From assembly GCF_002234675.1 (NCBI RefSeq), contig NC_019879.2:1395278-1459277 (forward strand): 64,000 nucleotides of DNA, in the 5' to 3' direction. The position numbers were made by a program, and so were the translations under genes. Numbering within the stretch: position 1 is the first letter of the stretch; each line of letters starts with the position of its first letter. This document shows, in pieces, positions 1 through 60,789 of this stretch. Under the pieces are notes generated by a model. It was not told where the DNA came from. It worked only from the letters and a program-made list of their open reading frames with translations, and searched no databases. The stretch comes from Oryzias latipes. Its lineage: Eukaryota > Chordata > Actinopteri > Beloniformes > Adrianichthyidae.

Positions 1-410
1 CTGTAGAGCAAGAGATGCTGTTCTGCTGTCATCAGCTGAGGCTCCTCCAGTGACAACCATAAAAATCTGAGGAACTCCCTGATCCATCCTACTGCCTCTT
101 TCTTTTGTGAAATGCACATTTTGAATGTGTTGAATGGCTGCGCCAGTGTTGATTCTTGGTCCTCCTCTGTACTGTACTTGTTCAATGGCAGTTACGATGT
201 TTTCCTTGTTGTCATACGTGTTGAGGAAGAAGGCGTCAGTCACATCTGCAGCATATTGTGCCAGGCTGATTTGAAGGCTGCTCTCGTCGTCATAAAGATT
301 ATCAATGATGCCATTGATGAATTGCATCGCTGCTTCGAAGTTGCTTCGGCCCAAATTTATGGAACCATCCACCAGAAAAACTATATCTGCTTGTTTTGGG
401 GAGTTGTCTG
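1..410 (-). CDS. col6a3: col6a3 vWA exon V36 (human N2-like), cut by window edge
   Basis: The acceptor is TTTTAACCACAG/CA. The frame runs SDNSPKQADIVFLVDGSINLG, then SLQISLAQYAADVTDAFFL, GGPRINTGAAIQH, GSRMDQGVPQIFMVVTGG and ends at base 1 after SLALQ. DGSIN and GSR(M/L)DQ match human N2. About 135 codons are present and the rest lies outside the window. Confidence 0.9.
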
Positions 411-3400
411 CTGTGGTTAAAATGAAGAAAAAATAACTGTAAAAAAGCAGCAATTAAGAACGTGATTTTTAGCAAAAGAAAAAGGGAAAAAAAAACTTGA
501 CTAGACTTACAAGGAGTTTCACCATCTGGGAGTGTTACTGGTGTTAAACCAGCTAGTCTAGCAATAAACTGTTGGAAAACTTCCTGTGTTTGCAGGTTAG
601 GCAATAAAAAAATTGGAATAAAATCCTTTGGGGTGGATGCAATTTGGATTAGCTGTGTGTTAGCACGACCAGCATCAATAGCAATACTATGTATCTGTGT
701 GCTCTTAAGCAGTTGGCCGTATAGGTTGACATCTTCGGTGGAACGTCCAGCAGTGATAATTACAAGATGCTGGGTAGCAACAGCTGGACGAGCAACTGCA
801 AATGGTTGGAATTCATTTTCCATGATATAATCAATGGCATCAGGTAGTTCTGATGAGCGTCCACCAATATAACGAAGTCTTTGTATAGCATTGATAACAG
901 CAGCCTTGTTGTTGTGTGAGTTGAGTGAGAAGTCAGTTTTAACTCTGTCTGCATACTGGACAACCCCCACACGCACTTGATCGGGCTGAACATTGAGCTG
1001 CTGGACAATTTTGAGGAGGAAGTCGCGCATATGAGCAAATCCAGTAAGACCTATGCTGGCTGAGCCATCAATCAGGAAAATAATGTCTTTTTTGCCAATA
1101 TTGAGCAAGTATGAAAAAAATTCTTAAGAGGGATTTATAATTTTATGTATTAATATTATAGATATTAGTAATAATTGGGACAAAATTAAAGGAAATCTAA
1201 AAATTACATTTTGCACTATTAAATTACCACTTTCCATACATATGAACTAAAGTCTTAAAAACATGAATAAATGAGACGTCCTACCTGGGGACACAGATGG
1301 GGGGGCTACAGCCCTGGTTATGTCACCAGTGGACGTAGATGTTAAGGATTCCATAAATGTTGGTTGGTTCCTAGCAAACTGTTCAAAGTTGTTCGCAACA
1401 TAAAAAACCTCTGGATTTGAGGAAATTTGCCTTAGTTCATTTGAATCAGCATCAGCCGAACCGATGGGAACAGAGGCAATTCGTAGTGACTTCAGTGAGG
1501 CAGATGGTCTAGATACATCATCTGAAGATTTACCACCTAAAAGTACAATAAGGAACTGGGGGACGCCCTCTTCAATGCGGCTTCCTGCAGACCTCTGATA
1601 GATGTTTCTGGAGACCCATTCTAGAGCACGGCCTGTGTTTCGACGAGTTCCACCTTTGCTTGTGAGCCTCATTATTCTTTCTTGCACTTGGTTTTTTGTA
1701 GAGAATTCATTCAGAGGAAATTCTAACTTAGGTTCATCACTGTACTGTACTACTGACACTCTGGCCTTGTCCAGGCCCATGTCCAACTTCTCCACAAAAA
1801 TTCTCATCGTGTTGCGAATGGATGGAAATTTACTACTTGTTGATGTTGTGCCATCAATGAGAAATACAACATCCTTCTTTTCTCCTGCTCTTCGAACTGG
1901 TGTAATTTCTGTTCAGAAGGAAGGCAACAAAACGATAAGCGATTAATACTAAGATTCTAGTCAGAGAACAAAGTCTTGCATTGCAGGGAAACCATTTCTT
2001 GTGCCAGTAAAGTCATCCAGGAGAAATACAACATCTTTTTTGGCTGTGTCAACTAAGGATAGAAAGAAAGATAACATATTAAACTTTGAGCTGAGCATGT
2101 CTTATTGGCTATACGTCTGTGACAGGATTATTTAAATACACAAAAACCTTTTACACACTTTCATTTCTTTTCCTCTTGGACTGTTTGCCTACAAAATAAC
2201 CATCCGCTAAATTTGTTGAAAAGAAGTGAAAGGTGTTCTAGAGTGGCATCTGAAAGGCTGCATTATTGACGTACCAGAATCAGTTGGGGTATCTGGGGTC
2301 ACGTCAATGGGCAAAGCCTCTAAAGAGGCCAACAGCTGCTGCGGCACGCTGGAAAGGTCTGTGAATTCAGCCACAGTGAAAGCAGAAGTGGGCTTGTGGG
2401 ATATCCTCTGCAGTTCTCTACTGTCAGAGCCTCTACTGCCAACTGCAAAGGTCAATATGCCCATTTGTTTGAGAGCAGAGGCTGGTGCATCGACACTGTC
2501 AGCAGATCTTCCACTGCTTAGCAGTATCAGGAGCTGTGGAACTCCCTCCAAGCGCCTGCTTCCCGAAGAGGCAGTGAAGACGTTTTCCCTCAAGTACTGG
2601 AGAGCTGCTCCAGTGTTGAGAGATCTCCCCCCTTTGTGCCTCAAATTTCTGACAGCATTAAGGATCTCGTCTTTTGTCATGTAAGTGTTCAGATAAAACT
2701 GGACAGCTGGATCTCTGCTGTACTGAACCACTGACACACGGTCTTTCTTCTCGTCCACAAGTAGCATCTCCACCACTCTCTGGACAAAGTCTTGCACGGC
2801 TGGGAAGTCGCTTCTAGTAGAATCGGTTGCATCCAGCAAGAAAACCACATCCCTTGCTGGTGTCTGTCTTCCCACTAGGGAACACAAGATTTGTCACACA
2901 TATCTCTGCATGAAACACATGTCAATATTCTATGTAGAAATCCAACTTTAGGCGCCTAGGATTTGGGGGTTTCTCTGGTTCTGCTAGTGCCACATTCCCT
3001 GTCAGTGTTTAACTGGCTGACCCAGGCTCAGCAAAGTGCAGTTAAAGAAGCTCAGTTTATTATCCTTGAATGAATTGACGGGACAAAGTCTTCCAGTTAC
3101 GTACCTGTCTCTGTGGTTGTCAAAGGCCGGGATCTGACTACGGCTGTGCTCATCAGAGAGGAGATTTGCTCCTGGACGGTGTCGAGCCCACTAAAATCAG
3201 ACACTGACAAAGCGTAGCTAGGCTCAAACGATAGCCTTTGCAGCTCTCTGCTGTCCGAGGTCCTTGATCCAATGGCAAACACAAAGATGCCCCGCTGTTT
3301 CAAAGCAGAAGCTGGGGTATCCACATTGTCAAAAGACCTTCCGCCTGCTAGCAGTATCAAGATCTGTGGAACACCTTGCAGGCGTCTGCTCACAGTGGAG

Positions 3401-6400
3401 TTTGTAAAGACATTGTCCATGACGTACTGGAGGGCTGCCCCGGTATTTAGGGGTCTTCCTCCTCTGTGTCTAAGCCCTCTGACAGCGTCCATAACATCTT
3501 CCCTTGTTCTGTGTGTATTCAGAGAGAAATGGACCTCTGCTTCTCGGCTGTATTGGACAACAGACACACGGTCCTTGTTTTCTCCCACGCTCAGTTTCTC
3601 CACCACTCTTTCAACAAAGTCACGCATTGCAGAGAAACCATTCCTTGTGCCATCAGAGCCATCCAGGAGAAATACAACATCTTTTTTGGCTGTGTCAACT
3701 AAGGATAGAAAGGAAGACAAGATATCAAACTTTGAGCCGAACACACCTTATTGGCCAAACGTCGGTGTGAGGATTATTAAAATACACAACTACTTTTCCC
3801 CCACTTTGAGGAATTCCTTGTCCTCTGTTTGCCTACAGAATGCCCATCTCCCAATTTTGATTAAAAAATGCTCATTTGGAGCAAATTTTGGTAAAGTATT
3901 TCTTGTCCATAAGATTATAAAGAAGTGAAAGGAGTTCTAGAGTGGCATCTGAAAGGCTGCATCATTGACGTACCAGAATCAGTTGGGGTTTCTGGGGTCA
4001 CGTCAATGGGCAAAGCCTCTAAAGAGGCCAACAGCTGCTGCGGCACGCTGGAAAGGTCTGTGAATTCAGCCACAGTGAAAGCAGAAGTGGGCTTGTGGGA
4101 TATCCTCTGCAGTTCTCTACTGTCAGAGCCTCTACTGCCAACTGCAAAGGTCAATATGCCCATTTGTTTGAGAGCAGAGGCCGGTGCATCGACACTGTCA
4201 GCAGATCTTCCACTGCTTAGCAGTATCAGGACCTGTGGAACTCCCTCCAAGCGCCTGCTTCCCGAAGAGGCAGTGAAGACGTTTTCCCTCAAGTACTGGA
4301 GAGCTGCTCCAGTGTTGAGAGATCTCCCCCCTTTGTGCCTCAAATTTCTGACAGCATTAAGGATCTCGTCTTTTGTCATGTAAGTGTTCAGATAAAACTG
4401 GACAGCTGGATCTCTGCTGTACTGAACCACTGACACACGGTCTTGCTTCTCGTCCACAAGTAGCGTCTCCACCACTCTCTGGACAAAGTCTTGCACGGCT
4501 GGGAAGTCGCTTCTAGTTGCATCGGTTGCATCCAGCAAGAAAACCACATCCCTTGCTGGTGTCTGTCTTCCCACTAGGGAACACAAGATTTGTCACACAT
4601 ATCTCTGCATGAAACACATGTCAATATTCTATGTAGAAATCCAACTTTAGGCGCCTAGGATTTGGGGGTTTCTCTGGTTCTGCTAGTGCCACATTCCCTG
4701 TCAGTGTTTAACTGGCTGACCCAGGCTCAGCAAAGTGCAGTTAAAGAAGCTCAGTTTATTATCCTTGCATGAATTGACGGGACAAAGTCTCCCAGTTACG
4801 TACCTGTCTCTGTGGTTGTCAAAGGCCGGGATCTGACTACGGCTGTGCTCATCAGAGAGGAGATTTGTTCCTGGACGGTGTCGAGCCCACTAAAATCAGA
4901 CACTGACAAAGCGTAGCTAGGCTCAAACGATAGCCTTTGCAGCTCTCTGCTGTCCGAGGTCCTTGATCCAATGGCAAACACAAAGATGCCCCGCTGTTTC
5001 AAAGCAGAAGCTGGGGTATCCACATTGTCAAAAGACCTTCCGCCTGCTAGCAGTATCAAGATCTGTGGAACACCTTGCAGGCGTCTGCTCCCAGTGGAGT
5101 TTGTAAAGACATTGTCCATGACGTACTGGAGGGCTGCCCCGGTATTTAGGGGTCTTCCTCCTCTGTGTCTAAGCCCTCTGACAGCGTCCATAACATCTTC
5201 CCTTGTTCTGTGTGTATTCAGAGAGAAATGGACCTCTGCTTCTCGGCTGTATTGGACAACAGACACACGGTCCTTGTTTTCTCCCACGCTCAGTTTCTCC
5301 ACCACTCTTTCAACAAAGTCACGCATTGCAGAGAAACCATTCCTTGTGCCATCAGAGCCATCCAGGAGAAATACAACATCTTTTTTGGCTGTGTCAACTA
5401 AGGATAGAAAGGAAGACAAGATATCAAACTTTGAGCCGAACACACCTTATTGGCCAAACGTCGGTGTGAGGATTATTAAAATACACAACTACTTTTCCCC
5501 CACTTTGAGGAATTCCTTGTCCTCTGTTTGCCTACAGAATGCCCATCTCCCAATTTTGATTAAAAAATGCTCATTTGGAGCAAATTTTGGTAAAGTATTT
5601 CTTGTCCATAAGATTATAAAGAAGTGAAAGGAGTTCTAGAGTGGCATCTGAAAGGCTGCATCATTGACGTACCAGAATCAGTTGGGGTTTCTGGGGTCAC
5701 GTGAATGGGCAAAGCCTCTAAAGAGGCCAACAGCTGCTGCGGCACGCTGGAAAGGTCTGTGAATTCAGCCACAGTGAAAGCAGAAGTGGGCTTGTGGGAT
5801 ATCCTCTGCAGTTCTCTACTGTCAGAGCCTCTACTGCCAACTGCAAAGGTCAATATGCCCATTTGTTTGAGAGCAGAGGCCGGTGCATCGACACTGTCAG
5901 CAGATCTTCCACTGCTTAGCAGTATCAGGACCTGTGGAACTCCCTCCAAGCGCCTGCTTCCCGAAGAGGCAGTGAAGACGTTTTCCCTCAAGTACTGGAG
6001 AGCTGCTCCAGTGTTGAGAGATCTCCCCCCTTTGTGCCTCAAATTTCTGACAGCATTAAGGATCTCGTCTTTTGTCATGTAAGTGTTCAGATAAAACTGG
6101 ACAGCTGGATCTCTGCTGTACTGAACCACTGACACACGGTCTTTCTTCTCGTCCACAAGTAGCGTCTCCACCACTCTCTGGACAAAGTCTTGCACGGCTG
6201 GGAAGTCGCTTCTAGTTGCATCGGTTGCATCCAGCAAGAAAACCACATCCCTTGCTGGTGTCTGTCTTCCCACTAGGGAACACAAGATTTGTCACACATA
6301 TCTCTGCATGAAACACATGTCAATATTCTATGTAGAAATCCAACTTTAGGCGCCTAGGATTTGGGGGTTTCTCTGGTTCTGCTAGTGCCACATTCCCTGT

Positions 6401-9400
6401 CAATGTTTAACTGGCTGACCCAGGCTCAGCAAAGTGCAGTTAAAGAAGCTCAGTTTATTATCCTTGCATGAATTGACGGGACAAAGTCTCCCAATTACGT
6501 ACCTGTCTCTGTGGTTGTCAAAGGCCGGGATCTGACTACGGCTGTGCTCATCAGAGAGGAGATTTGTTCCTGGACGGTGTCGAGCCCACTAAAATCAGAC
6601 ACTGACAAAGCGTAGCTAGGCTCAAACGATAGCCTTTGCAGCTCTCTGCTGTCCGAGGTCCTTGATCCAATGGCAAACACAAAGATGCCCCGCTGTTTCA
6701 AAGCAGAAGCTGGGGTATCCACATTGTCAAAAGACCTTCCGCCTGCTAGCAGTATCAAGATCTGTGGAACACCTTGCAGGCGTCTGCTCCCAGTGGAGTT
6801 TGTAAAGACATTGTCCATGACGTACTGGAGGGCTGCCCCGGTATTTAGGGGTCTTCCTCCTCTGTGTCTAAGCCCTCTGACGGCGTCCATAACATCTTCC
6901 CTTGTTCTGTGTGTATTCAGAGAGAAATGGACCTCTGCTTCTCGGCTGTATTGGACAACAGACACACGGTCCTTGTTTTCTCCCACGCTCAGTTTCTCCA
7001 CCACTCTTTCAACAAAGTCACGCATTGCAGAGAAACCATTCCTTGTGCCATCAGAGCCATCCAGGAGAAATACAACATCTTTTTTGGCTGTGTCAACTAA
7101 GGATAGAAAGGAAGACAAGATATCAAACTTTGAGCCGAACACACCTTATTGGCCAAACCTCGGTGTGAGGATTATTAAAATACACAACTACTTTTCCCCC
7201 ACTTTGAGGAATTCCTTGTCCTCTGTTTGCCTACAGAATGCCCATCTCCCAATTTTGATTAAAAAATGCTCATTTGGAGCAAATTTTGGTAAAGTATTTC
7301 TTGTCCATAAGATTATAAAGAAGTGAAAGGAGTTCTAGAGTGGCATCTGAAAGGCTGCATCATTGACGTACCAGAATCAGTTGGGGTTTCTGGGGTCACG
7401 TCAATGGGCAAAGCCTCTAAAGAGGCCAACAGCTGCTGCGGCACGCTGGAAAGGTCTGTGAATTCAGCCACAGTGAAAGCAGAAGTGGGCTTGTGGGATA
7501 TCCTCTGCAGTTCTCTACTGTCAGAGCCTCTACTGCCAACTGCAAAGGTCAATATGCCCATTTGTTTGAGAGCAGAGGCCGGTGCATCGACACTGTCAGC
7601 AGATCTTCCACTGCTTAGCAGTATCAGGACCTGTGGAACTCCCTCCAAGCGCCTGCTTCCCGAAGAGGCAGTGAAGACGTTTTCCCTCAAGTACTGGAGA
7701 GCTGCTCCAGTGTTGAGAGATCTCCCCCCTTTGTGCCTCAAATTTCTGACAGCATTAAGGATCTCGTCTTTTGTCATGTAAGTGTTCAGATAAAACTGGA
7801 CAGCTGGATCTCTGCTGTACTGAACCACTGACACACGGTCTTTCTTCTCGTCCACAAGTAGCGTCTCCACCACTCTCTGGACAAAGTCTTGCACGGCTGG
7901 GAAGTCGCTTCTAGTTGCATCGGTTGCATCCAGCAAGAAAACCACATCCCTTGCTGGTGTCTGTCTTCCCACTAGGGAACACAAGATTTGTCACACATAT
8001 CTCTGCATGAAACACATGTCAATATTCTATGTAGAAATCCAACTTTAGGCGCCTAGGATTTGGGGGTTTCTCTGGTTCTGCTAGTGCCACATTCCCTGTC
8101 AGTGTTTAACTGGCTGACCCAGGCTCAGCAAAGTGCAGTTAAAGAAGCTCAGTTTATTATCCTTGCATGAATTGACGGGACAAAGTCTCCCAGTTACGTA
8201 CCTGTCTCTGTGGTTGTCAAAGGCCGGGATCTGACTACGGCTGTGCTCATCAGAGAGGAGATTTGTTCCTGGACGGTGTCGAGCCCACTAAAATCAGACA
8301 CTGACAAAGCGTAGCTAGGCTCAAACGATAGCCTTTGCAGCTCTCTGCTGTCCGAGGTCCTTGATCCAATGGCAAACACAAAGATGCCCCGCTGTTTCAA
8401 AGCAGAAGCTGGGGTATCCACATTGTCAAAAGACCTTCCGCCTGCTAGCAGTATCAAGATCTGTGGAACACCTTGCAGGCGTCTGCTCCCAGTGGAGTTT
8501 GTAAAGACATTGTCCATGACGTACTGGAGGGCTGCCCCGGTATTTAGGGGTCTTCCTCCTCTGTGTATAAGCCCTCTGACAGCGTCCATAACATCTTCCC
8601 TTGTTCTGTGTGTATTCAGAGAGAAATGGACCTCTGCTTCTCGGCTGTATTGGACAACAGACACACGGTCCTTGTTTTCTCCCACGCTCAGTTTCTCCAC
8701 CACTCTTTCAACAAAGTCACGCATTGCAGAGAAACCATTCCTTGTGCCATCAGAGCCATCCAGGAGAAATACAACATCTTTTTTGGCTGTGTCAACTAAG
8801 GATAGAAAGGAAGACAAGATATCAAACTTTGAGCCGAACACACCTTATTGGCCAAACGTCGGTGTGAGGATTATTAAAATACACAACTACTTTTCCCCCA
8901 CTTTGAGGAATTCCTTGTCCTCTGTTTGCCTACAGAATGCCCATCTCCCAATTTTGATTAAAAAATGCTCATTTGGAGCAAATTTTGGTAAAGTATTTCT
9001 TGTCCATAAGATTATAAAGAAGTGAAAGGAGTTCTAGAGTGGCATCTGAAAGGCTGCATCATTGACGTACCAGAATCAGTTGGGGTTTCTGGGGTCACGT
9101 CAATGGGCAAAGCCTCTAAAGAGGCCAACAGCTGCTGCGGCACGCTGGAAAGGTCTGTGAATTCAGCCACAGTGAAAGCAGAAGTGGGCTTGTGGGATAT
9201 CCTCTGCAGTTCTCTACTGTCAGAGCCTCTACTGCCAACTGCAAAGGTCAATATGCCCATTTGTTTGAGAGCAGAGGCCGGTGCATCGACACTGTCAGCA
9301 GATCTTCCACTGCTTAGCAGTATCAGGACCTGTGGAACTCCCTCCAAGCGCCTGCTTCCCGAAGAGGCAGTGAAGACGTTTTCCCTCAAGTACTGGAGAG

Positions 9401-12400
9401 CTGCTCCAGTGTTGAGAGATCTCCCCCCTTTGTGCCTCAAATTTCTGACAGCATTAAGGATCTCGTCTTTTGTCATGTAAGTGTTCAGATAAAACTGGAC
9501 AGCTGGATCTCTGCTGTACTGAACCACTGACACACGGTCTTTCTTCTCGTCCACAAGTAGCGTCTCCACCACTCTCTGGACAAAGTCTTGCACGGCTGGG
9601 AAGTCGCTTCTAGTTGCATCGGTTGCATCCAGCAAGAAAACCACATCCCTTGCTGGTGTCTGTCTTCCCACTAGGGAACACAAGATTTGTCACACATATC
9701 TCTGCATGAAACACATGTCAATATTCTATGTAGAAATCCAACTTTAGGCGCCTAGGATTTGGGGGTTTCTCTGGTTCTGCTAGTGCCACATTCCCTGTCA
9801 TGTTTAACTGGCTGACCCAGGCTCAGCAAAGTGCAGTTAAAGAAGCTCAGTTTATTATCCTTGCATGAATTGACGGGACAAAGTCTCCCATTACGTACCT
9901 GTCTCTGTGGTTGTCAAAGGCCGGGATCTGACTACGGCTGTGCTCATCAGAGAGGAGATTTGTTCCTGGACGGTGTCGAGCCCACTAAAATCAGACACTG
10001 ACAAAGCGTAGCTAGGCTCAAACGATAGCCTTTGCAGCTCTCTGCTGTCCGAGGTCCTTGATCCAATGGCAAACACAAAGATGCCCCGCTGTTTCAAAGC
10101 AGAAGCTGGGGTATCCACATTGTCAAAAGACCTTCCGCCTGCTAGCAGTATCAAGATCTGTGGAACACCTTGCAGGCGTCTGCTCACAGTGGAGTTTGTA
10201 AAGACATTGTCCATGACGTACTGGAGGGCTGCCCCGGTATTTAGGGGTCTTCCTCCTCTGTGTCTAAGCCCTCTGACAGCGTCCATAACATCTTCCCTTG
10301 TTCTGTGTGTATTCAGAGAGAAATGGACCTCTGCTTCTCGGCTGTATTGGACAACAGACACACGGTCCTTGTTTTCTCCCACGCTCAGTTTCTCCACCAC
10401 TCTTTCAACAAAGTCACGCATTGCAGAGAAACCATTCCTTGTGCCATCAGAGCCATCCAGGAGAAATACAACATCTTTTTTGGCTGTGTCAACTAAGGAT
10501 AGAAAGGAAGACAAGATATCAAACTTTGAGCCGAACACACCTTATTGGCCAAACGTCGGTGTGAGGATTATTAAAATACACAACTACTTTTCCCCCACTT
10601 TGAGGAATTCCTTGTCCTCTGTTTGCCTACAGAATGCCCATCTCCCAATTTTGATTAAAAAATGCTCATTTGGAGCAAATTTTGGTAAAGTATTTCTTGT
10701 CCATAAGATTATAAAGAAGTGAAAGGAGTTCTAGAGTGGCATCTGAAAGGCTGCATCATTGACGTACCAGAATCAGTTGGGGTTTCTGGGGTCACGTCAA
10801 TGGGCAAAGCCTCTAAAGAGGCCAACAGCTGCTGCGGCACGCTGGAAAGGTCTGTGAATTCAGCCACAGTGAAAGCAGAAGTGGGCTTGTGGGATATCCT
10901 CTGCAGTTCTCTACTGTCAGAGCCTCTACTGCCAACTGCAAAGGTCAATATGCCCATTTGTTTGAGAGCAGAGGCCGGTGCATCGACACTGTCAGCAGAT
11001 CTTCCACTGCTTAGCAGTATCAGGACCTGTGGAACTCCCTCCAAGCGCCTGCTTCCCGAAGAGGCAGTGAAGACGTTTTCCCTCAAGTACTGGAGAGCTG
11101 CTCCAGTGTTGAGAGATCTCCCCCCTTTGTGCCTCAAATTTCTGACAGCATTAAGGATCTCGTCTTTTGTCATGTAAGTGTTCAGATAAAACTGGACAGC
11201 TGGATCTCTGCTGTACTGAACCACTGACACACGGTCTTTCTTCTCGTCCACAAGTAGCGTCTCCACCACTCTCTGGACAAAGTCTTGCACGGCTGGGAAG
11301 TCGCTTCTAGTTGCATCGGTTGCATCCAGCAAGAAAACCACATCCCTTGCTGGTGTCTGTCTTCCCACTAGGGAACACAAGATTTGTCACACATATCTCT
11401 GCATGAAACACATGTCAATATTCTATGTAGAAATCCAACTTTAGGCGCCTAGGATTTGGGGGTTTCTCTGGTTCTGCTAGTGCCACATTCCCTGTCAGTG
11501 TTTAACTGGCTGACCCAGGCTCAGCAAAGTGCAGTTAAAGAAGCTCAGTTTATTATCCTTGCATGAATTGACGGGACAAAGTCTCCCAGTTACGTACCTG
11601 TCTCTGTGGTTGTCAAAGGCCGGGATCTGACTACGGCTGTGCTCATCAGAGAGGAGATTTGTTCCTGGACGGTGTCGAGCCCACTAAAATCAGACACTGA
11701 CAAAGCGTAGCTAGGCTCAAACGATAGCCTTTGCAGCTCTCTGCTGTCCGAGGTCCTTGATCCAATGGCAAACACAAAGATGCCCCGCTGTTTCAAAGCA
11801 GAAGCTGGGGTATCCACATTGTCAAAAGACCTTCCGCCTGCTAGCAGTATCAAGATCTGTGGAACACCTTGCAGGCGTCTGCTCCAGTGGAGTTTGTAAA
11901 GACATTGTCCATGACGTACTGGAGGGCTGCCCCGGTATTTAGGGGTCTTCCTCCTCTGTGTCTAAGCCCTCTGACAGCGTCCATAACATCTTCCCTTGTT
12001 CTGTGTGTATTCAGAGAGAAATGGACCTCTGCTTCTCGGCTGTATTGGACAACAGACACACGGTCCTTGTTTTCTCCCACGCTCAGTTTCTCCACCACTC
12101 TTTCAACAAAGTCACGCATTGCAGAGAAACCATTCCTTGTGCCATCAGAGCCATCCAGGAGAAATACAACATCTTTTTTGGCTGTGTCAACTAAGGATAG
12201 AAAGGAAGACAAGATATCAAACTTTGAGCCGAACACACCTTATTGGCCAAACGTCGGTGTGAGGATTATTAAAATACACAACTACTTTTCCCCCACTTTG
12301 AGGAATTCCTTGTCCTCTGTTTGCCTACAGAATGCCCATCTCCCAATTTTGATTAAAAAATGCTCATTTGGAGCAAATTTTGGTAAAGTATTTCTTGTCC

Positions 12401-15400
12401 ATAAGATTATAAAGAAGTGAAAGGAGTTCTAGAGTGGCATCTGAAAGGCTGCATTATTGACGTACCAGAATCAGTTGGGGTTTCTGGGGTCACGTCAATG
12501 GGCAAAGCCTCTAAAGAGGCCAACAGCTGCTGCGGCACGCTGGAAAGGTCTGTGAATTCAGCCACAGTGAAAGCAGAAGTGGGCTTGTGGGATATCCTCT
12601 GCAGTTCTCTACTGTCAGAGCCTCTACTGCCAACTGCAAAGGTCAATATGCCCATTTGTTTGAGAGCAGAGGCCGGTGCATCGACACTGTCAGCAGATCT
12701 TCCACTGCTTAGCAGTATCAGGACCTGTGGAACTCCCTCCAAGCGCCTGCTTCCCGAAGAGGCAGTGAAGACGTTTTCCCTCAAGTACTGGAGAGCTGCT
12801 CCAGTGTTGAGAGATCTCCCCCCTTTGTGCCTCAAATTTCTGACAGCATTAAGGATCTCGTCTTTTGTCATGTAAGTGTTCAGATAAAACTGGACAGCTG
12901 GATCTCTGCTGTACTGAACCACTGACACACGGTCTTTCTTCTCGTCCACAAGTAGCGTCTCCACCACTCTCTGGACAAAGTCTTGCACGGCTGGGAAGTC
13001 GCTTCTAGTTGCATCGGTTGCATCCAGCAAGAAAACCACATCCCTTGCTGGTGTCTGTCTTCCCACTAGGGAACACAAGATTTGTCACACATATCTCTGC
13101 ATGAAACACATGTCAATATTCTATGTAGAAATCCAACTTTAGGCGCCTAGGATTTGGGGGTTTCTCTGGTTCTGCTAGTGCCACATTCCCTGTCAGTGTT
13201 TAACTGGCTGACCCAGGCTCAGCAAAGTGCAGTTAAAGAAGCTCAGTTTATTATCCTTGCATGAATTGACGGGACAAAGTCTCCCAGTTACGTACCTGTC
13301 TCTGTGGTTGTCAAAGGCCGGGATCTGACTACGGCTGTGCTCATCAGAGAGGAGATTTGTTCCTGGACGGTGTCGAGCCCACTAAAATCAGACACTGACA
13401 AAGCGTAGCTAGGCTCAAACGATAGCCTTTGCAGCTCTCTGCTGTCCGAGGTCCTTGATCCAATGGCAAACACAAAGATGCCCCGCTGTTTCAAAGCAGA
13501 AGCTGGGGTATCCACATTGTCAAAAGACCTTCCGCCTGCTAGCAGTATCAAGATCTGTGGAACACCTTGCAGGCGTCTGCTCACAGTGGAGTTTGTAAAG
13601 ACATTGTCCATGACGTACTGGAGGGCTGCCCCGGTATTTAGGGGTCTTCCTCCTCTGTGTCTAAGCCCTCTGACAGCGTCCATAACATCTTCCCTTGTTC
13701 TGTGTGTATTCAGAGAGAAATGGACCTCTGCTTCTCGGCTGTATTGGACAACAGACACACGGTCCTTGTTTTCTCCCACGCTCAGTTTCTCCACCACTCT
13801 TTCAACAAAGTCACGCATTGCAGAGAAACCATTCCTTGTGCCATCAGAGCCATCCAGGAGAAATACAACATCTTTTTTGGCTGTGTCAACTAAGGATAGA
13901 AAGGAAGACAAGATATCAAACTTTGAGCCGAACACACCTTATTGGCCAAACGTCGGTGTGAGGATTATTAAAATACACAACTACTTTTCCCCCACTTTGA
14001 GGAATTCCTTGTCCTCTGTTTGCCTACAGAATGCCCATCTCCCAATTTTGATTAAAAAATGCTCATTTGGAGCAAATTTTGGTAAAGTATTTCTTGTCCA
14101 TAAGATTATAAAGAAGTGAAAGGAGTTCTAGAGTGGCATCTGAAAGGCTGCATTATTGACGTACCAGAATCAGTTGGGGTTTCTGGGGTCACGTCAATGG
14201 GCAAAGCCTCTAAAGAGGCCAACAGCTGCTGCGGCACGCTGGAAAGGTCTGTGAATTCAGCCACAGTGAAAGCAGAAGTGGGCTTGTGGGATATCCTCTG
14301 CAGTTCTCTACTGTCAGAGCCTCTACTGCCAACTGCAAAGGTCAATATGCCCATTTGTTTGAGAGCAGAGGCCGGTGCATCGACACTGTCAGCAGATCTT
14401 CCACTGCTTAGCAGTATCAGGACCTGTGGAACTCCCTCCAAGCGCCTGCTTCCCGAAGAGGCAGTGAAGACGTTTTCCCTCAAGTACTGGAGAGCTGCTC
14501 CAGTGTTGAGAGATCTCCCCCCTTTGTGCCTCAAATTTCTGACAGCATTAAGGATCTCGTCTTTTGTCATGTAAGTGTTCAGATAAAACTGGACAGCTGG
14601 ATCTCTGCTGTACTGAACCACTGACACACGGTCTTTCTTCTCGTCCACAAGTAGCGTCTCCACCACTCTCTGGACAAAGTCTTGCACGGCTGGGAAGTCG
14701 CTTCTAGTTGCATCGGTTGCATCCAGCAAGAAAACCACATCCCTTGCTGGTGTCTGTCTTCCCACTAGGGAACACAAGATTTGTCACACATATCTCTGCA
14801 TGAAACACATGTCAATATTCTATGTAGAAATCCAACTTTAGGCGCCTAGGATTTGGGGGTTTCTCTGGTTCTGCTAGTGCCACATTCCCTGTCAGTGTTT
14901 AACTGGCTGACCCAGGCTCAGCAAAGTGCAGTTAAAGAAGCTCAGTTTATTATCCTTGCATGAATTGACGGGACAAAGTCTCCCAGTTACGTACCTGTCT
15001 CTGTGGTTGTCAAAGGCCGGGATCTGACTACGGCTGTGCTCATCAGAGAGGAGATTTGTTCCTGGACGGTGTCGAGCCCACTAAAATCAGACACTGACAA
15101 AGCGTAGCTAGGCTCAAACGATAGCCTTTGCAGCTCTCTGCTGTCCGAGGTCCTTGATCCAATGGCAAACACAAAGATGCCCCGCTGTTTCAAAGCAGAA
15201 GCTGGGGTATCCACATTGTCAAAAGACCTTCCGCCTGCTAGCAGTATCAAGATCTGTGGAACACCTTGCAGGCGTCTGCTCCAGTGGAGTTTGTAAAGAC
15301 ATTGTCCATGACGTACTGGAGGGCTGCCCCGGTATTTAGGGGTCTTCCTCCTCTGTGTCTAAGCCCTCTGACAGCGTCCATAACATCTTCCCTTGTTCTG

Positions 15401-18400
15401 TGTGTATTCAGAGAGAAATGGACCTCTGCTTCTCGGCTGTATTGGACAACAGACACACGGTCCTTGTTTTCTCCCACGCTCAGTTTCTCCACCACTCTTT
15501 CAACAAAGTCACGCATTGCAGAGAAACCATTCCTTGTGCCATCAGAGCCATCCAAGAGAAATACAACATCTTTTTTGGCTGTGTCAACTAAGGATAGAAA
15601 GGAAGACAAGATATCAAACTTTGAGCCGAACACACCTTATTGGCCAAACGTCGGTGTGAGGATTATTAAAATACACAACTACTTTTCCCCCACTTTGAGG
15701 AATTCCTTGTCCTCTGTTTGCCTACAGAATGCCCATCTCCCAATTTTGATTAAAAAATGCTCATTTGGAGCAAATTTTGGTAAAGTATTTCTTGTCCATA
15801 AGATTATAAAGAAGTGAAAGGAGTTCTAGAGTGGCATCTGAAAGGCTGCATTATTGACGTACCAGAATCAGTTGGGGTTTCTGGGGTCACGTCAATGGGC
15901 AAAGCCTCTAAAGAGGCCAACAGCTGCTGCGGCACGCTGGAAAGGTCTGTGAATTCAGCCACAGTGAAAGCAGAAGTGGGCTTGTGGGATATCCTCTGCA
16001 GTTCTCTACTGTCAGAGCCTCTACTGCCAACTGCAAAGGTCAATATGCCCATTTGTTTGAGAGCAGAGGCCGGTGCATCGACACTGTCAGCAGATCTTCC
16101 ACTGCTTAGCAGTATCAGGACCTGTGGAACTCCCTCCAAGCGCCTGCTTCCCGAAGAGGCAGTGAAGACGTTTTCCCTCAAGTACTGGAGAGCTGCTCCA
16201 GTGTTGAGAGATCTCCCCCCTTTGTGCCTCAAATTTCTGACAGCATTAAGGATCTCGTCTTTTGTCATGTAAGTGTTCAGATAAAACTGGACAGCTGGAT
16301 CTCTGCTGTACTGAACCACTGACACACGGTCTTTCTTCTCGTCCACAAGTAGCGTCTCCACCACTCTCTGGACAAAGTCTTGCACGGCTGGGAAGTCGCT
16401 TCTAGTTGCATCGGTTGCATCCAGCAAGAAAACCACATCCCTTGCTGGTGTCTGTCTTCCCACTAGGGAACACAAGATTTGTCACACATATCTCTGCATG
16501 AAACACATGTCAATATTCTATGTAGAAATCCAACTTTAGGCGCCTAGGATTTGGGGGTTTCTCTGGTTCTGCTAGTGCCACATTCCCTGTCAGTGTTTAA
16601 CTGGCTGACCCAGGCTCAGCAAAGTGCAGTTAAAGAAGCTCAGTTTATTATCCTTGCATGAATTGACGGGACAAAGTCTCCCAGTTACGTACCTGTCTCT
16701 GTGGTTGTCAAAGGCCGGGATCTGACTACGGCTGTGCTCATCAGAGAGGAGATTTGTTCCTGGACGGTGTCGAGCCCACTAAAATCAGACACTGACAAAG
16801 CGTAGCTAGGCTCAAACGATAGCCTTTGCAGCTCTCTGCTGTCCGAGGTCCTTGATCCAATGGCAAACACAAAGATGCCCCGCTGTTTCAAAGCAGAAGC
16901 TGGGGTATCCACATTGTCAAAAGACCTTCCGCCTGCTAGCAGTATCAAGATCTGTGGAACACCTTGCAGGCGTCTGCTCACAGTGGAGTTTGTAAAGACA
17001 TTGTCCATGACGTACTGGAGGGCTGCCCCGGTATTTAGGGGTCTTCCTCCTCTGTGTATAAGCCCTCTGACAGCGTCCATAACATCTTCCCTTGTTCTGT
17101 GTGTATTCAGAGAGAAATGGACCTCTGCTTCTCGGCTGTATTGGACAACAGACACACGGTCCTTGTTTTCTCCCACGCTCAGTTTCTCCACCACTCTTTC
17201 AACAAAGTCACGCATTGCAGAGAAACCATTCCTTGTGCCATCAGAGCCATCCAAGAGAAATACAACATCTTTTTTGGCTGTGTCAACTAAGGATAGAAAG
17301 GAAGACAAGATATCAAACTTTGAGCCGAACACACCTTATTGGCCAAACGTCGGTGTGAGGATTATTAAAATACACAACTACTTTTCCCCCACTTTGAGGA
17401 ATTCCTTGTCCTCTGTTTGCCTACAGAATGCCCATCTCCCAATTTTGATTAAAAAATGCTCATTTGGAGCAAATTTTGGTAAAGTATTTCTTGTCCATAA
17501 GATTATAAAGAAGTGAAAGGAGTTCTAGAGTGGCATCTGAAAGGCTGCATTATTGACGTACCAGAATCAGTTGGGGTTTCTGGGGTCACGTCAATGGGCA
17601 AAGCCTCTAAAGAGGCCAACAGCTGCTGCGGCACGCTGGAAAGGTCTGTGAATTCAGCCACAGTGAAAGCAGAAGTGGGCTTGTGGGATATCCTCTGCAG
17701 TTCTCTACTGTCAGAGCCTCTACTGCCAACTGCAAAGGTCAATATGCCCATTTGTTTGAGAGCAGAGGCCGGTGCATCGACACTGTCAGCAGATCTTCCA
17801 CTGCTTAGCAGTATCAGGACCTGTGGAACTCCCTCCAAGCGCCTGCTTCCCGAAGAGGCAGTGAAGACGTTTTCCCTCAAGTACTGGAGAGCTGCTCCAG
17901 TGTTGAGAGATCTCCCCCCTTTGTGCCTCAAATTTCTGACAGCATTAAGGATCTCGTCTTTTGTCATGTAAGTGTTCAGATAAAACTGGACAGCTGGATC
18001 TCTGCTGTACTGAACCACTGACACACGGTCTTTCTTCTCGTCCACAAGTAGCGTCTCCACCACTCTCTGGACAAAGTCTTGCACGGCTGGGAAGTCGCTT
18101 CTAGTTGCATCGGTTGCATCCAGCAAGAAAACCACATCCCTTGCTGGTGTCTGTCTTCCCACTAGGGAACACAAGATTTGTCACACATATCTCTGCATGA
18201 AACACATGTCAATATTCTATGTAGAAATCCAACTTTAGGCGCCTAGGATTTGGGGGTTTCTCTGGTTCTGCTAGTGCCACATTCCCTGTCAGTGTTTAAC
18301 TGGCTGACCCAGGCTCAGCAAAGTGCAGTTAAAGAAGCTCAGTTTATTATCCTTGCATGAATTGACGGGACAAAGTCTCCCAGTTACGTACCTGTCTCTG

Positions 18401-21400
18401 TGGTTGTCAAAGGCCGGGATCTGACTACGGCTGTGCTCATCAGAGAGGAGATTTGTTCCTGGACGGTGTCGAGCCCACTAAAATCAGACACTGACAAAGC
18501 GTAGCTAGGCTCAAACGATAGCCTTTGCAGCTCTCTGCTGTCCGAGGTCCTTGATCCAATGGCAAACACAAAGATGCCCCGCTGTTTCAAAGCAGAAGCT
18601 GAGGTATCCACATTGTCAAAAGACCTTCCGCCTGCTAGCAGTATCAAGATCTGTGGAACACCTTGCAGGCGTCTGCTCCCAGTGGAGTTTGTAAAGACAT
18701 TGTCCATGACGTACTGGAGGGCTGCCCCGGTATTTAGGGGTCTTCCTCCTCTGTGTCTAAGCCCTCTGACAGCGTCCATAACATCTTCCCTTGTTCTGTG
18801 TGTATTCAGAGAGAAATGGACCTCTGCTTCTCGGCTGTATTGGACAACAGACACACGGTCCTTGTTTTCTCCCACGCTCAGTTTCTCCACCACTCTTTCA
18901 ACAAAGTCACGCATTGCAGAGAAACCATTCCTTGTGCCATCAGAGCCATCCAAGAGAAATACAACATCTTTTTTGGCTGTGTCAACTAAGGATAGAAAGG
19001 AAGACAAGATATCAAACTTTGAGCCGAACACACCTTATTGGCCAAACGTCGGTGTGAGGATTATTAAAATACACAACTACTTTTCCCCCACTTTGAGGAA
19101 TTCCTTGTCCTCTGTTTGCCTACAGAATGCCCATCTCCCAATTTTGATTAAAAAATGCTCATTTGGAGCAAATTTTGGTAAAGTATTTCTTGTCCATAAG
19201 ATTATAAAGAAGTGAAAGGAGTTCTAGAGTGGCATCTGAAAGGCTGCATTATTGACGTACCAGAATCAGTTGGGGTTTCTGGGGTCACGTCAATGGGCAA
19301 AGCCTCTAAAGAGGCCAACAGCTGCTGCGGCACGCTGGAAAGGTCTGTGAATTCAGCCACAGTGAAAGCAGAAGTGGGCTTGTGGGATATCCTCTGCAGT
19401 TCTCTACTGTCAGAGCCTCTACTGCCAACTGCAAAGGTCAATATGCCCATTTGTTTGAGAGCAGAGGCCGGTGCATCGACACTGTCAGCAGATCTTCCAC
19501 TGCTTAGCAGTATCAGGACCTGTGGAACTCCCTCCAAGCGCCTGCTTCCCGAAGAGGCAGTGAAGACGTTTTCCCTCAAGTACTGGAGAGCTGCTCCAGT
19601 GTTGAGAGATCTCCCCCCTTTGTGCCTCAAATTTCTGACAGCATTAAGGATCTCGTCTTTTGTCATGTAAGTGTTCAGATAAAACTGGACAGCTGGATCT
19701 CTGCTGTACTGAACCACTGACACACGGTCTTTCTTCTCGTCCACAAGTAGCGTCTCCACCACTCTCTGGACAAAGTCTTGCACGGCTGGGAAGTCGCTTC
19801 TAGTTGCATCGGTTGCATCCAGCAAGAAAACCACATCCCTTGCTGGTGTCTGTCTTCCCACTAGGGAACACAAGATTTGTCACACATATCTCTGCATGAA
19901 ACACATGTCAATATTCTATGTAGAAATCCAACTTTAGGCGCCTAGGATTTGGGGGTTTCTCTGGTTCTGCTAGTGCCACATTCCCTGTCAGTGTTTAACT
20001 GGCTGACCCAGGCTCAGCAAAGTGCAGTTAAAGAAGCTCAGTTTATTATCCTTGCATGAATTGACGGGACAAAGTCTCCCAGTTACGTACCTGTCTCTGT
20101 GGTTGTCAAAGGCCGGGATCTGACTACGGCTGTGCTCATCAGAGAGGAGATTTGTTCCTGGACGGTGTCGAGCCCACTAAAATCAGACACTGACAAAGCG
20201 TAGCTAGGCTCAAACGATAGCCTTTGCAGCTCTCTGCTGTCCGAGGTCCTTGATCCAATGGCAAACACAAAGATGCCCCGCTGTTTCAAAGCAGAAGCTG
20301 AGGTATCCACATTGTCAAAAGACCTTCCGCCTGCTAGCAGTATCAAGATCTGTGGAACACCTTGCAGGCGTCTGCTCCCAGTGGAGTTTGTAAAGACATT
20401 GTCCATGACGTACTGGAGGGCTGCCCCGGTATTTAGGGGTCTTCCTCCTCTGTGTCTAAGCCCTCTGACAGCGTCCATAACATCTTCCCTTGTTCTGTGT
20501 GTATTCAGAGAGAAATGGACCTCTGCTTCTCGGCTGTATTGGACAACAGACACACGGTCCTTGTTTTCTCCCACGCTCAGTTTCTCCACCACTCTTTCAA
20601 CAAAGTCACGCATTGCAGAGAAACCATTCCTTGTGCCATCAGAGCCATCCAAGAGAAATACAACATCTTTTTTGGCTGTGTCAACTAAGGATAGAAAGGA
20701 AGACAAGATATCAAACTTTGAGCCGAACACACCTTATTGGCCAAACGTCGGTGTGAGGATTATTAAAATACACAACTACTTTTCCCCCACTTTGAGGAAT
20801 TCCTTGTCCTCTGTTTGCCTACAGAATGCCCATCTCCCAATTTTGATTAAAAAATGCTCATTTGGAGCAAATTTTGGTAAAGTATTTCTTGTCCATAAGA
20901 TTATAAAGAAGTGAAAGGAGTTCTAGAGTGGCATCTGAAAGGCTGCATTATTGACGTACCAGAATCAGTTGGGGTTTCTGGGGTCACGTCAATGGGCAAA
21001 GCCTCTAAAGAGGCCAACAGCTGCTGCGGCACGCTGGAAAGGTCTGTGAATTCAGCCACAGTGAAAGCAGAAGTGGGCTTGTGGGATATCCTCTGCAGTT
21101 CTCTACTGTCAGAGCCTCTACTGCCAACTGCAAAGGTCAATATGCCCATTTGTTTGAGAGCAGAGGCCGGTGCATCGACACTGTCAGCAGATCTTCCACT
21201 GCTTAGCAGTATCAGGACCTGTGGAACTCCCTCCAAGCGCCTGCTTCCCGAAGAGGCAGTGAAGACGTTTTCCCTCAAGTACTGGAGAGCTGCTCCAGTG
21301 TTGAGAGATCTCCCCCCTTTGTGCCTCAAATTTCTGACAGCATTAAGGATCTCGTCTTTTGTCATGTAAGTGTTCAGATAAAACTGGACAGCTGGATCTC

Positions 21401-24400
21401 TGCTGTACTGAACCACTGACACACGGTCTTTCTTCTCGTCCACAAGTAGCGTCTCCACCACTCTCTGGACAAAGTCTTGCACGGCTGGGAAGTCGCTTCT
21501 AGTTGCATCGGTTGCATCCAGCAAGAAAACCACATCCCTTGCTGGTGTCTGTCTTCCCATTAGGGAATTTTCTGAAATCATTGGAAATTATTATTTTCTT
21601 TTGCCATCTTTTATATTTATTAAGAATTTTGAAATGGCTTTGAGACTTCACTGCTTACCAACATTTTCTATTTGTGCTATTTCTTCACTTTGTTCCATTC
21701 TATCTTTCACAGATTCCTTTATGTTTTGCAGACTTTTATAGTCAGGAACAAAAAAATAATGTGCTGGTGTAAAAGAAATTGTTTGCATTTCTAAAGTGTC
21801 AGCATTTTTTGTTCCGAAACAAAAAGTCACAATTCCGTTTTTCTTAAGTGAATGTGCTGGTCCTCTGACATCATCTCCTGATCTTCCCCCACTAAATATA
21901 AACAAATACTGAAGAACAGATTCTGTGGGTCTACCACCAACTGAAGCAGCAAAGACATGGTCTCTGACAAATTCCAGAGCTTTTCCAGTATTGAGAGGTC
22001 GTCCAAATTTGTGGTATATTGTTCTGATGGAGTTAAGCACATCGCTTCTGGATGAATAAGAATTTAAATAAAAGTTTACAGTGGCAACACGACTGTATTG
22101 AACCACAGCGACTTTGTCTCCATTGTTTCCAACTTTTAAAATTTCAACAATTCCTTTTACAAAGTTTCTTATTTCTTCAAAGCCGGATCGCGAGTCAAAA
22201 GATCCATCAATTAGAAAAACCACATCTTTTTTTTTGGAATCTATCAAAAATAGAGATAAAAAATACAGGTTACACATCTGTTAAAAATAACAACATGTAA
22301 CAGCCTGCAGTGTCTTTTGCTGAAATAAAAATGTTTCCTTCACTTTGACTCAAACAAGCATGTGTAAACATGTAAAGTAGCAAAACTTACCAAACCTTGT
22401 TGTATTTCCCATTTGAACAATAGGGTTAGAGGTTTCTTTTAACAGTGATAGCACATCCTGCAGAACAGTAGTGAGTTCTTCATAGTCAGTAACAGAGAGT
22501 GCATACTTTGGTTCTTTGGATATTGTCTGTAATTCAAGTGTATCGGCATCTGTTGTTCCAATAGAAATCACCATAATTCCAGTTTCTTTTATCATTTTCA
22601 CTGGGGTTCTTATATCATCCCTAGATCGATCCCCACTGAGTAATATTAGTATTTGTGGAACTCCTTCTTTAAGTCTACTTCCAGATTCTGGACTAAATGC
22701 ATGCTCACGCACATACTTGAGAGCTGCTCCGATATTGTTGGGATATCCTCCTTTGTGACTCAGACTTTGAACTGCTTCAAGAACATCCTTCTCTGTTACG
22801 TAACGATTCAAATTAAAATTGATCTCTGCTGAGTTGCTGTACTGAGCCACAGCCACATGGTCTCCATTTACATCAATGTCAAGGTCCCTTACAATTCTTT
22901 CAACAAAGTCAGTTATATCTGGGAATCTTTGCTGGGAGTCATCTGAACCATCAAGCAAAAAAACAACATCTCTTCTCTTGGAATCTGTAATCAAACAGAA
23001 ATCTTACAACTTAGTCAATGGTTAAATCGTAGTTCACTCGATCTCATTGTCAGTATGAAAGCTTCAGTTTGCTATCCTTGAAAAACCTGATTGCACCCAT
23101 AGTCTTTCACCCACTCTTTGAAGTCCCACTCCAACTATATTTGTATTCATTGTAAAAGTTTTTCCAGTGGTCTTTTAGTTCGAATTATGCCGTTTTTAGC
23201 CAAAATCCAAAGGCCTGTGTTGTTTTTAAAACATAATTTCTGCAGAGCAGCAGGAGTTCATCAGAAACTCACTTTTCGGTTGTGGGCGGGACTGTTGGTG
23301 TGGAAGTAACCCTACAATGATATCCCATCATTCCTTTGTTTACACTCTCCCTGCTAGCTTACAGACCCTCACAACCCCAAGCTTAAATTAAGGTAGCAAT
23401 TGTTAGCCACATCTAAACCATGCAGCCGTACAATTTAGGTCCAGATTCCAGCTCAAACAAAGACGTCCATTGATCTATTTGTCTGCAAGTGGAAGCATCA
23501 AAATGGAGCCCAGCAGGTAGCGTCCTGGGTCAAAAATCACCATGTTCAGAATAACAAAATATTCAGAAAAGCTGTTTTAATCTTAAATTCTTTTTTATAT
23601 GTCCTCCAATCATGTGAAAAAATGCAGCTAGAATATGTAAAAAAAAACGCCCAAACCCCCTTTTTTCTTTGGAGTGGGATTTCAAAGAGCTATTGATGAT
23701 GTTGCATGATATTCATTTGACTGGCTGGCAGAGTATCAAATTGTGCATTTGCATTAAAGCAATTCTTACCACGTGATCCGGATGTATTCACCGGGCTTTC
23801 ACTCTTTCCAATGGCTAAAATTAATTTCTGCTCAATGTCTGTCAGGCTGCTGGAATCTGCTACAAGGAACGCTTTGGTAGGTTCCTGTGAAACAGACTGC
23901 ATCTCAAGAATATCTGCATTCTTGATTCCCACCACAAAGGTGTTTACACCAACATCTTTCAAATTTACCACAGCATCTCTGATCTCATCTCTTGATGGTC
24001 CACCAGTAAGGAGAATGAGAATTTGTGGAACACCCTGCTGGCGCCTACTACCAGATGAAGACGCAAAAATCTCATCTTTGACGTAACTAAGGGCTGCTCC
24101 AGTGTTTAGGGGTCTGCCTCCTTTATGTCTGAGAGCTTGAACATTGTCAGTAACACTCTGCTTTGTTTTGTGAGTATTCAGAAAGAATTCAGCAGTAGGC
24201 TCATTGCTGTACTGAACAACTGAAACTTGATCTTTGTTCTCTTCCACATTGAGTTTCTCTAGTATTCTCTCAACAAATCCAATTACAGTCTTAAAATTGC
24301 TCCTCATTTCATCAGAAGAATCCAATAAAAACACAATGTCTCTCTGAGTGGGTACTATTTGCTCCATGGAACCTTAAAAAATATGAAATCACATTAGAGA

Positions 24401-38735: not shown

Positions 38736-38854
38736 ATAGTTTGACTTGTGATTTGTAAACTACTGTCCTTCAAATGTTGATGTATGAGTTGAATAAAGCA
38801 TATACATTTACTTTTTAAAATAATGATTAAAAAAAACAAAATTTTTTTCTCCGC

Positions 38855-52934: not shown

Positions 52935-53092
52935 ATAGATAGGCTCCAGCAGCCCCGTTACCTCAAAAGAGAACAAACGGATTAGAAGATGAATGAATGA
53001 ATGAATGAATGAATGAATGAATGAATGAATGAATGAATGAATGAATGAATGAATGAATGAATGAATGAATGAATGAATGAATGAATGAATGA
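52935..53092 (+). repeat. LINE 3' end followed by (GAAT)n microsatellite
   Basis: gataggctccagcagccccg and acggattagaagatgaatga match the terminus at 38.6 kb; the tail has expanded to about 25 GAAT units (52989-53092). Confidence 0.85.
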
Positions 53093-55457: not shown

Positions 55458-56789
<1,332 letters not shown>

Positions 56790-57661: not shown

Positions 57662-57663
<2 letters not shown>

Positions 57664-57692
<29 letters not shown>

Positions 57693-57872
57693 TGTATGTA
57701 TGTATGTATGTATGTATGTATGTATGTATGTATGTATGTATGTATGTATGTATGTATGTATGTATGTATGTATGTATGTATGTATGTATGTATGTATGTA
57801 TGTATGTATGTATGTATGTATGTATGTATGTATGTATGTATGTATGTATGTATGTATGTATGTACGTATATG
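57664..57872. repeat. (ATGT)n microsatellite, about 52 repeats
   Basis: Near-perfect tetranucleotide tract; gives spurious open frames in several phases on both strands. Confidence 0.98.
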
Positions 57873-60115: not shown

Positions 60116-60789
60116 AAACTACAATAGTCTGTCTTTTAGAGATTGAAGATGCTTTTCTCACAGACCATCAAAGATGAAGATCAGTTATGTCAGCTGCTCA
60201 GTGTTAGCTTAGTGTTTAGCCACTATGTATGATGGAGTTTATGTCCTGAAATGTGAAGAGGCCTTCTCACTTTAGGTGTTCTGCAGTCGCAGGCGGGACT
60301 GAGAACACCTTTGTTTGAGGCGATGTCACCGCACCAAGGAACCTGAAACCTTTGGCTGAAAGTTAGGCTTCTTCCACAAATAGGCTACAAGCCTTAAGCA
60401 ATGAGCTTGTTATGGAAAAATAATGACAAGCCTCTCCAACATCTCCTCAACCGTTTAAAAAAACATGTAATTTTATGTATTTGTCTCCAATTTTTCAGTT
60501 TTGTCCAACCCAAAAGTTCAACAAACACAGAAGCCGAGATCCTCATGTTTCAGGTTTTACCGTTGAGATTCTGTTTTAATCCTTCTAAGCCAAACAAGGT
60601 GAATCTTTGAACAAAATCCTTCTGTATTTGAATCAAAACTTTTGAGAAAAACATTTCTCTAATGGTTTTGTTAATTTTTTCAGTCAAAGGTACGACAGGA
60701 AAATTATAGCTCATGATTACAAAAGTCTTAAGTTAGTTTAAGAGTGAGAAGCCTAAACGCAGTGGACCTAGCAAAGATAGAGCAATTAT

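Follow-up and report, generated by a model that had tools for sequence, protein, structure and literature searches.

A candidate coding tandem array of vWA exon pairs in the collagen VI gene col6a3 of medaka

Organization of the locus

The stretch analyzed here, referred to as the window, comprises 64,000 nucleotides of the medaka (Oryzias latipes) genome assembly GCF_002234675.1 (contig NC_019879.2; C21:1395278-1459277), and the entire analysis rests on this one assembly. Its minus strand carries 36 exons encoding vWA domains of a gene that the evidence below supports as col6a3: ten upstream exons (E1-E10), 12 exons termed A, 11 termed B, and three downstream exons, the last of which is cut at the window edge. 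The original prediction had arrived at the same total. Elsewhere in the genome, a DM-domain search gave six matches, three of them together on C9, the chromosome of medaka dmrt1, and none on C1; the male gene DMY was not among them. Contig 25 carries eight tRNA genes in its first 10,000 bases, in the order typical of vertebrate mitochondria. A and B alternate in a tandem array that is strongly supported in the assembly and that makes medaka col6a3 a candidate coding multi-exon variable number tandem repeat (VNTR) in a collagen.

A tandem array of vWA exon pairs

The window matches itself best at a lag of 1699. At this lag (+/-1-2 bp), identity was at least 0.96 in 38 of the 43 bins examined (400-bp bins starting at 2401-19201); values in the other five (0.64-0.84) are those expected of bins straddling a 1-2 bp shift. 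Anchor sequences placed in exon A had 12 occurrences and those in exon B had 11, spaced 1696-1700 apart (net 1697-1699), and a 51-mer from exon A had 12 exact matches against none expected from 100 shuffles. Position 21571 is the first base of the first A exon and 2275 the last base of the twelfth, exactly the extents from which an eleven-unit repeat had been predicted. On the minus strand, and small deletions apart, each unit consists of exon A (600 bp; 612 bp in A1), a 275-bp intron, exon B (594 bp), and a 230-bp intron; the first unit is counted without the extra 12 bp of A1. Both exons encode vWA domains (Pfam VWA 3.3e-46 for A1 and 4.4e-47 for B1), in keeping with the claim that every unit adds two.

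As a control, the E1-E10 region gave no nucleotide self-match at 1e-5. A 20-kb control stretch on C16 with eight listed vWA matches had no unit-like repeat; apart from two short matches it showed nothing but a 36-bp minisatellite (C16:32211715-32212566), which adjoins another vWA gene cluster. The array was missed by TRF, whose longest reported period was 500. Used as a DNA query against its own genome, the unit returned four weak matches, located in E5, E7, E8, and E9, but missed the array; because the search skips very common words, copies outside the array may exist. The genome-wide vWA family search yielded at least 159 matches with 150 of 219 candidates scored, a result equally compatible with such copies. 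Rfam matched nothing in the window. No report of the array was found among the titles and abstract beginnings listed in searches of mainly open-access literature.

The array and the individual exons are placed as follows.

2275..21571, minus strand: tandem array, 11 full units of 1697-1699 bp (A, intron, B, intron) plus A12
31143..31739, minus strand: vWA exon E1 (Pfam VWA 7.6e-38; phase 1-1)
29692..30285, minus strand: vWA exon E2 (Pfam VWA 9e-35)
27972..28568, minus strand: vWA exon E3, grouping with bovine N7 (88/84, not starred)
27271..27882, minus strand: vWA exon E4, most similar to bovine N5 (45% identity)
26551..27156, minus strand: vWA exon E5
25573..26163, minus strand: vWA exon E6
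24449..25051, minus strand: vWA exon E7
23770..24354, minus strand: vWA exon E8
22391..22984, minus strand: vWA exon E9
21659..22240, minus strand: vWA exon E10
20960..21571, minus strand: exon A1, 612 bp
20091..20684, minus strand: exon B1
19261..19860, minus strand: exon A2
18392..18985, minus strand: exon B2
17562..18161, minus strand: exon A3
16693..17286, minus strand: exon B3
15863..16462, minus strand: exon A4
14995..15587, minus strand: exon B4, 593 bp; 1-bp deletion and frameshift at a column where units vary between G and T, probably a consensus error
14165..14764, minus strand: exon A5
13296..13889, minus strand: exon B5
12466..13065, minus strand: exon A6
11598..12190, minus strand: exon B6, 593 bp; shares the deletion of B4
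10768..11367, minus strand: exon A7
9899..10492, minus strand: exon B7; the next intron has two 1-bp deletions at the C/T variant columns of unit 9
9071..9670, minus strand: exon A8
8202..8795, minus strand: exon B8
7372..7971, minus strand: exon A9
6503..7096, minus strand: exon B9
5673..6272, minus strand: exon A10
4804..5397, minus strand: exon B10
3974..4573, minus strand: exon A11
3105..3698, minus strand: exon B11
2275..2874, minus strand: exon A12
1967..2052, minus strand: relic B13, a truncated and decayed B exon with an in-frame stop directly after it
1285..1908, minus strand: vWA exon N4a, grouping with bovine N4 (89/82, not starred)
511..1086, minus strand: vWA exon N3a, grouping with bovine N3 (94/82, not starred); 5' end uncertain
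1..410, minus strand: vWA exon N2a, extending past the window, with a frame that stays open throughout in the genome

The N-terminal string has one vWA domain per exon. Exons of the window are flanked by AG acceptors and GT donors fitting phase 1 on both sides, the acceptor of N3a being weak and N2a being cut by the window edge, and their lengths are multiples of three except in B4 and B6. Acceptor and donor sites are present in each of the 23 array exons, of which 21 are open. Joined from E1 to N3a without B4 and B6 (and without N2a), the exons read through 6573 residues with zero stops. If all were in frame, the N-terminal region would reach 7172 residues (1987 + 4582 + 603, the last figure taking in the part of the final exon outside the window), in agreement with the predicted excess over 7,000.

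Identity and extent of the gene

The top relative among solved structures is alpha-3(VI) chain 9han_C, with 4igi, 4ihk, and 6snk also leading. Of these, 4igi presumably corresponds to N5, for which a crystal structure has been described, and 6snk to N2. Methods headings of the microfibril paper identify 9han_C as bovine. Downstream of the window, the same strand carries five further vWA exons (X, N4b, N4c, N3c, and N2c), a triple helix with 12 runs of at least five Gly-X-Y (C21:1382875-1374395), and C1, C2 (Pfam VWA 3.9e-19 and 1.1e-17), fn3 (1.9e-10), and Kunitz (1.6e-16 and 6.9e-21) domains. The leading match to 9han_C, followed on one strand by helix, C1, C2, FN3, and Kunitz exons, supports the predicted identity of the gene as col6a3. 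Two frames (C21:1383768-1383343 and 1383128-1382865), the first without a Pfam match, resemble the human N1 domain by eye. Taken together, the 36 window exons, the five beyond it, and the N1-like stretch would give col6a3 about 42 N-terminal vWA domains.

The downstream exons are labeled N4, N3, and N2 by comparison with bovine 9han_C, 4igi, and 6snk. In a tree with seven full bovine N domains and one partial, in which 14 of 25 inner branches stay open, N2c grouped with bovine N2 (starred), whereas the groupings of N4a/b/c with N4, N3a/c with N3, and E3 with N7 were not starred. E5, E7-E10, A, and B fell together at 93/89, and A with B at 88/87, and the tree leaves open the mammalian counterparts of E4-E10, A, B, and X. 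The closest bovine domain is N5 for B and N4 for A, and an "N5-like" label for the array exons is tentative.

Three exons at this end form a duplicated block. N4-N3-N2 occurs in window 1-1947 (with C21:1395033-1395277) and again at C21:1383746-1385924, the copies being 92% identical over 2.2 kb and 11.3 kb apart; a third copy of N4 lies at C21:1392173-1392831. Between the block copies, the synonymous divergence (dS) drops from 0.126 in N4 through 0.05 in N3 to 0.015 in N2, as if conversion were still acting at one end.

At the C-terminal end of col6a3, two Kunitz domains lie ~2.2 kb apart (C21:1354204-1354503 and 1356737-1357165). A LINE-like element (C21:1361983-1365750, plus strand) sits antisense to the gene, in the interval separating the exons of C1 from those of C2. 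Its open frame runs to 1256 codons, and endonuclease and reverse transcriptase matches were found within the 1098 codons scanned.

Divergence and history of the array

The 11 full units (U1-U11) differ at 14 substitution columns, with a mean pairwise difference of 3.67 per 1699 bp (0.22%). Exons have 8 variable sites in 1194 bp and introns 6 in 505 bp (Fisher P 0.38); introns are thus as conserved as exons, as originally noted. The medaka genome paper puts the Hd-rR and HNI strains at 2.455% single-nucleotide polymorphisms and a split ~18 million years ago (PMC5705604). By proportion, the similarity of the units would correspond to ~1.6 million years, a date for the last homogenization and not for the first duplication.

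Variants are ordered along the array. Column 611 separates U1-6 from U7-11, column 908 separates U1-4 from U5-11, and column 1259 marks U1-2. Along the array the variants change state 24 times, compared with 37.9 times when the order is shuffled (a count this low arose in a fraction of 5e-5), and the five variants common to several units change state 10 times against 21.5 (1e-4). U11 has four private variants.

The two edges depart from this uniformity. A1 is homologous to the other units only from 21559, 12 bases into the exon, and its acceptor is its own. A12 shows 6 departures from the consensus in 600 sites, i.e., 99% identity to the array, and the intron 3' of it is alike for ~55 bp and then divergent, a break that resembles a conversion edge. 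Farther on, B13 and part of its preceding intron lie in a 177-bp stretch that shares 86-87% identity with the units. The end of B13 is no more than 20 bp from where the duplicated N4-N3-N2 block starts (~1947), and the duplication junction therefore probably truncated this exon. On this evidence, we read B13 as the mark of an old array edge. A and B themselves are separated by a nonsynonymous divergence (dN) of 0.325 and a dS of 2.7, near saturation, and by these rates are shown as ancient paralogues held apart by long purifying selection.

The original prediction described the expansion as young or kept uniform by recombination. The uniform interior (0.22%) agrees with it, but the expansion is not simply young: an old A-B pair and an old, decayed second B copy beside a uniform interior point to turnover or re-expansion rather than to one young event. 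Had the array arisen entirely in one recent burst from one A-B pair, the low mean divergence would be accounted for. This reading sits poorly with B13 and its preceding intron, which copy the B half of the unit at 13% divergence, so that a second copy existed earlier, and with A12, which remains 99% identical to the array up to an intron diverging as at a conversion edge. We consider such a burst a rather doubtful alternative to an older array kept uniform.

Frameshifts and reliability of the copy number

The frameshifts of B4 and B6 arise from the loss of one base at a column that reads G in U1, U2, and U8-U10 and T in U3, U5, U7, and U11. Similarly, U7 is without two intron bases at exactly the columns that read T in U9 and C elsewhere. 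All three deletion columns (four deletions) thus coincide with variant columns, of which there are 14 among 1701 (P 4.4e-7; 1.5e-5 with one base of slack), in a test devised after the data had been seen. The published Hd-rR assembly, to which the one analyzed here probably corresponds, was made with FALCON, Quiver, and Pilon from subreads of 6.5 kb mean length and 20-kb inserts (PMC5705604). For a bird genome, it has been stated, with data not shown there, that an early version of FALCON put indels at some nucleotides differing between merged haplotypes (PMC5632298). Since the strain is inbred, the simplest view is that different units would have been merged. Deletions on unit-specific variants, together with the reported merging errors, thus suggest that the frameshifts are probably false, originating as consensus errors from merged reads, and that the copy number is uncertain. 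More generally, merged-read consensus can set false frameshifts exactly at unit-specific variants, where annotation may then read broken exons.

A real B4/B6 frameshift, with part of the array pseudo-exonic and skipped, would be compatible with the array itself. The deletion is identical in two units, and exons of phase 1-1 tolerate skipping; the A domains of chicken alpha-3(VI) are reportedly spliced alternatively, by the title of a 1990 article by Doliana. That this deletion lies on the G/T variant column, and that both unit 7 deletions fall on unit 9's two C/T columns, nevertheless make a real frameshift unlikely.

The same signs of read merging between different units, in a near-identical 19.3-kb repeat built from subreads of 6.5 kb on average, raise the question of an assembly artifact, in which a short array was expanded by the assembler or given an arbitrary length. 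The order of the unit variants, the private variants of U11, and the old, decayed 3' edge speak against it, and merging would predict too few units and not too many. We judge an artifact of this kind highly improbable. The count of eleven, present in the assembly as predicted, is nevertheless insecure given the subread length and the deletions on unit variants; array length is provisional, especially near U4, U6, and U7, and is more likely too short than too long.

Proposed explanation and predicted protein

We consider it likely that the array is a coding multi-exon tandem array, comparable to KIV-2 of human LPA, that has grown and been kept uniform by unequal exchange and is spliced into a long alpha-3(VI) chain. 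An ancient A-B pair would have been amplified via unequal crossing-over between misaligned units, and crossing-over and conversion would maintain uniformity while the edges escape. Because exon borders are of phase 1-1, gain or loss of a unit leaves the frame unchanged. With all or most units spliced in, the part of the chain before the triple helix would hold ~42 vWA domains and reach at least 8,000 residues by estimate.

Several observations on the assembled sequence weigh against this explanation. Substitutions within the array are 5 nonsynonymous to 3 synonymous, no departure from an absence of constraint (P 0.42), to which A12 adds 4:2. In the duplicated N4, N3, and N2 exons, dN/dS is 0.45, 0.82, 1.27, 0.84, and 1.33 in five comparisons, and these flanking exons look relaxed. 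Columns 1104 and 1182 are patchy along the array, which fits either conversion or consensus noise. Two of the 23 array exons (B4 and B6) are frameshifted as assembled. With a subread mean of 6.5 kb and 20-kb inserts, few if any subreads are likely to span 19.3 kb. The splice sites checked are those of the window exons, those of X, N4b, and N1 beyond it being putative.

The 5:3 ratio and the symmetric exons would also suit an array that is real but mostly spliced out, i.e., a near-neutral expansion with a usual protein of ordinary length. This seems somewhat unlikely, given that every array exon retains both splice sites and all but two are open; the constraint seen between A and B points the same way, though it is older than the uniformity of the array.

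If the coding array is spliced in as proposed, the added domains would most likely lengthen the arm outside the N1-N5 core, since mammalian N1-N5 are reported as critical for collagen VI assembly, and would give the bead more reach or binding surface. By eye, neither A (DATDA) nor B (DGSDG) shows the DxSxS signature motif. The original prediction expected a very long flexible arm, a point on which published work is divided. The N-terminal regions of the long chains are described as C-shaped and somewhat flexible in solution (PMC4777857), and extra bead density has been credited to flexible alpha-3 N domains (PMC12354898); on the other side, N5 and N4 are arranged almost in line and a fragment spanning N9-N1 is extended. 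An arm of 42 domains would bring mass and reach around the bead, and its length may vary between fish. As a tentative extension, the array might be a hypervariable coding VNTR in which the number of A-B pairs differs between fish and arm length is heritable, with the 23-domain stretch forming a regular multi-turn coil and not a loose chain; a coil of this kind is suggested by the near likeness of A-B and B-A joints and by long arms that, by scattering, bend into a C. It would give the microfibril bead a new periodic module.

Relation to known systems

As in LPA KIV-2, the medaka array has an in-frame tandem two-exon unit with introns, highly similar copies, and a large share of the protein; its units are near-identical repeats of whole exons and introns, with 2 of 23 exons frameshifted as assembled. 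KIV-2 units are given as 5.6 kb each, numbering 1 to about 40 and making up to 70% of the protein (PMC11462820). Unlike KIV-2, the medaka unit measures 1.7 kb, each exon encodes a whole domain and not part of a kringle, the protein is a collagen, and the array is seen in one assembly. Medaka col6a3 would add a collagen to the genes with known coding multi-exon tandem arrays.

The nebulin triplicate and titin segmental duplication regions are alike in repeating blocks within a giant gene; they differ in consisting of three large blocks in sarcomeric proteins. Recurrent copy-number variation of these blocks is noted in a passage of PMC9142044.

Medaka col6a3 shares with mammalian alpha-3(VI) the N-terminal vWA string, triple helix, C1, C2, FN3, and Kunitz domains and differs in its ~42 N-terminal vWA domains (roughly 4x), a second Kunitz domain, and the duplicated N4-N3-N2 block. 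The mammalian chain has one Kunitz domain. Ten N-terminal vWA domains are stated for it (PMC3919171). The alpha-4/5/6(VI) chains are likewise long, with N-terminal vWA domains, and have far fewer of them than medaka col6a3. They are not known to have an FN3/Kunitz tail of the alpha-3 type. Their N-terminal vWA domains number seven each according to passages of PMC12354898, and those of a zebrafish collagen VI study (PMC6934817) contain no N-domain count. Medaka col6a3 has been quantified by qPCR in osteoclasts (PMC8911226). A laboratory fish with ~4x N domains on symmetric exons removable in pairs would be a natural arm-length series.

Other repeats in the region

An inverted repeat lies directly upstream of E1 (window 31957-32343 and 32623-33009), its arms being 387 nt long, 97% complementary, and 279 nt apart. 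A GC-rich repeat occurs at window ~38848-40707 and C21:1366280-1368142 (92% identical over 1.87 kb) and has several long open frames, putative only. Tandem repeats of ATGA, TA, TATG, and a 20-bp unit are found at window 52989-53098, 55461-55556, 57663-57877, and 63596-63938, respectively. A minisatellite at window 60789-62094 has ~66 copies of a 20-bp TCCA-rich unit and is open in three plus-strand frames.

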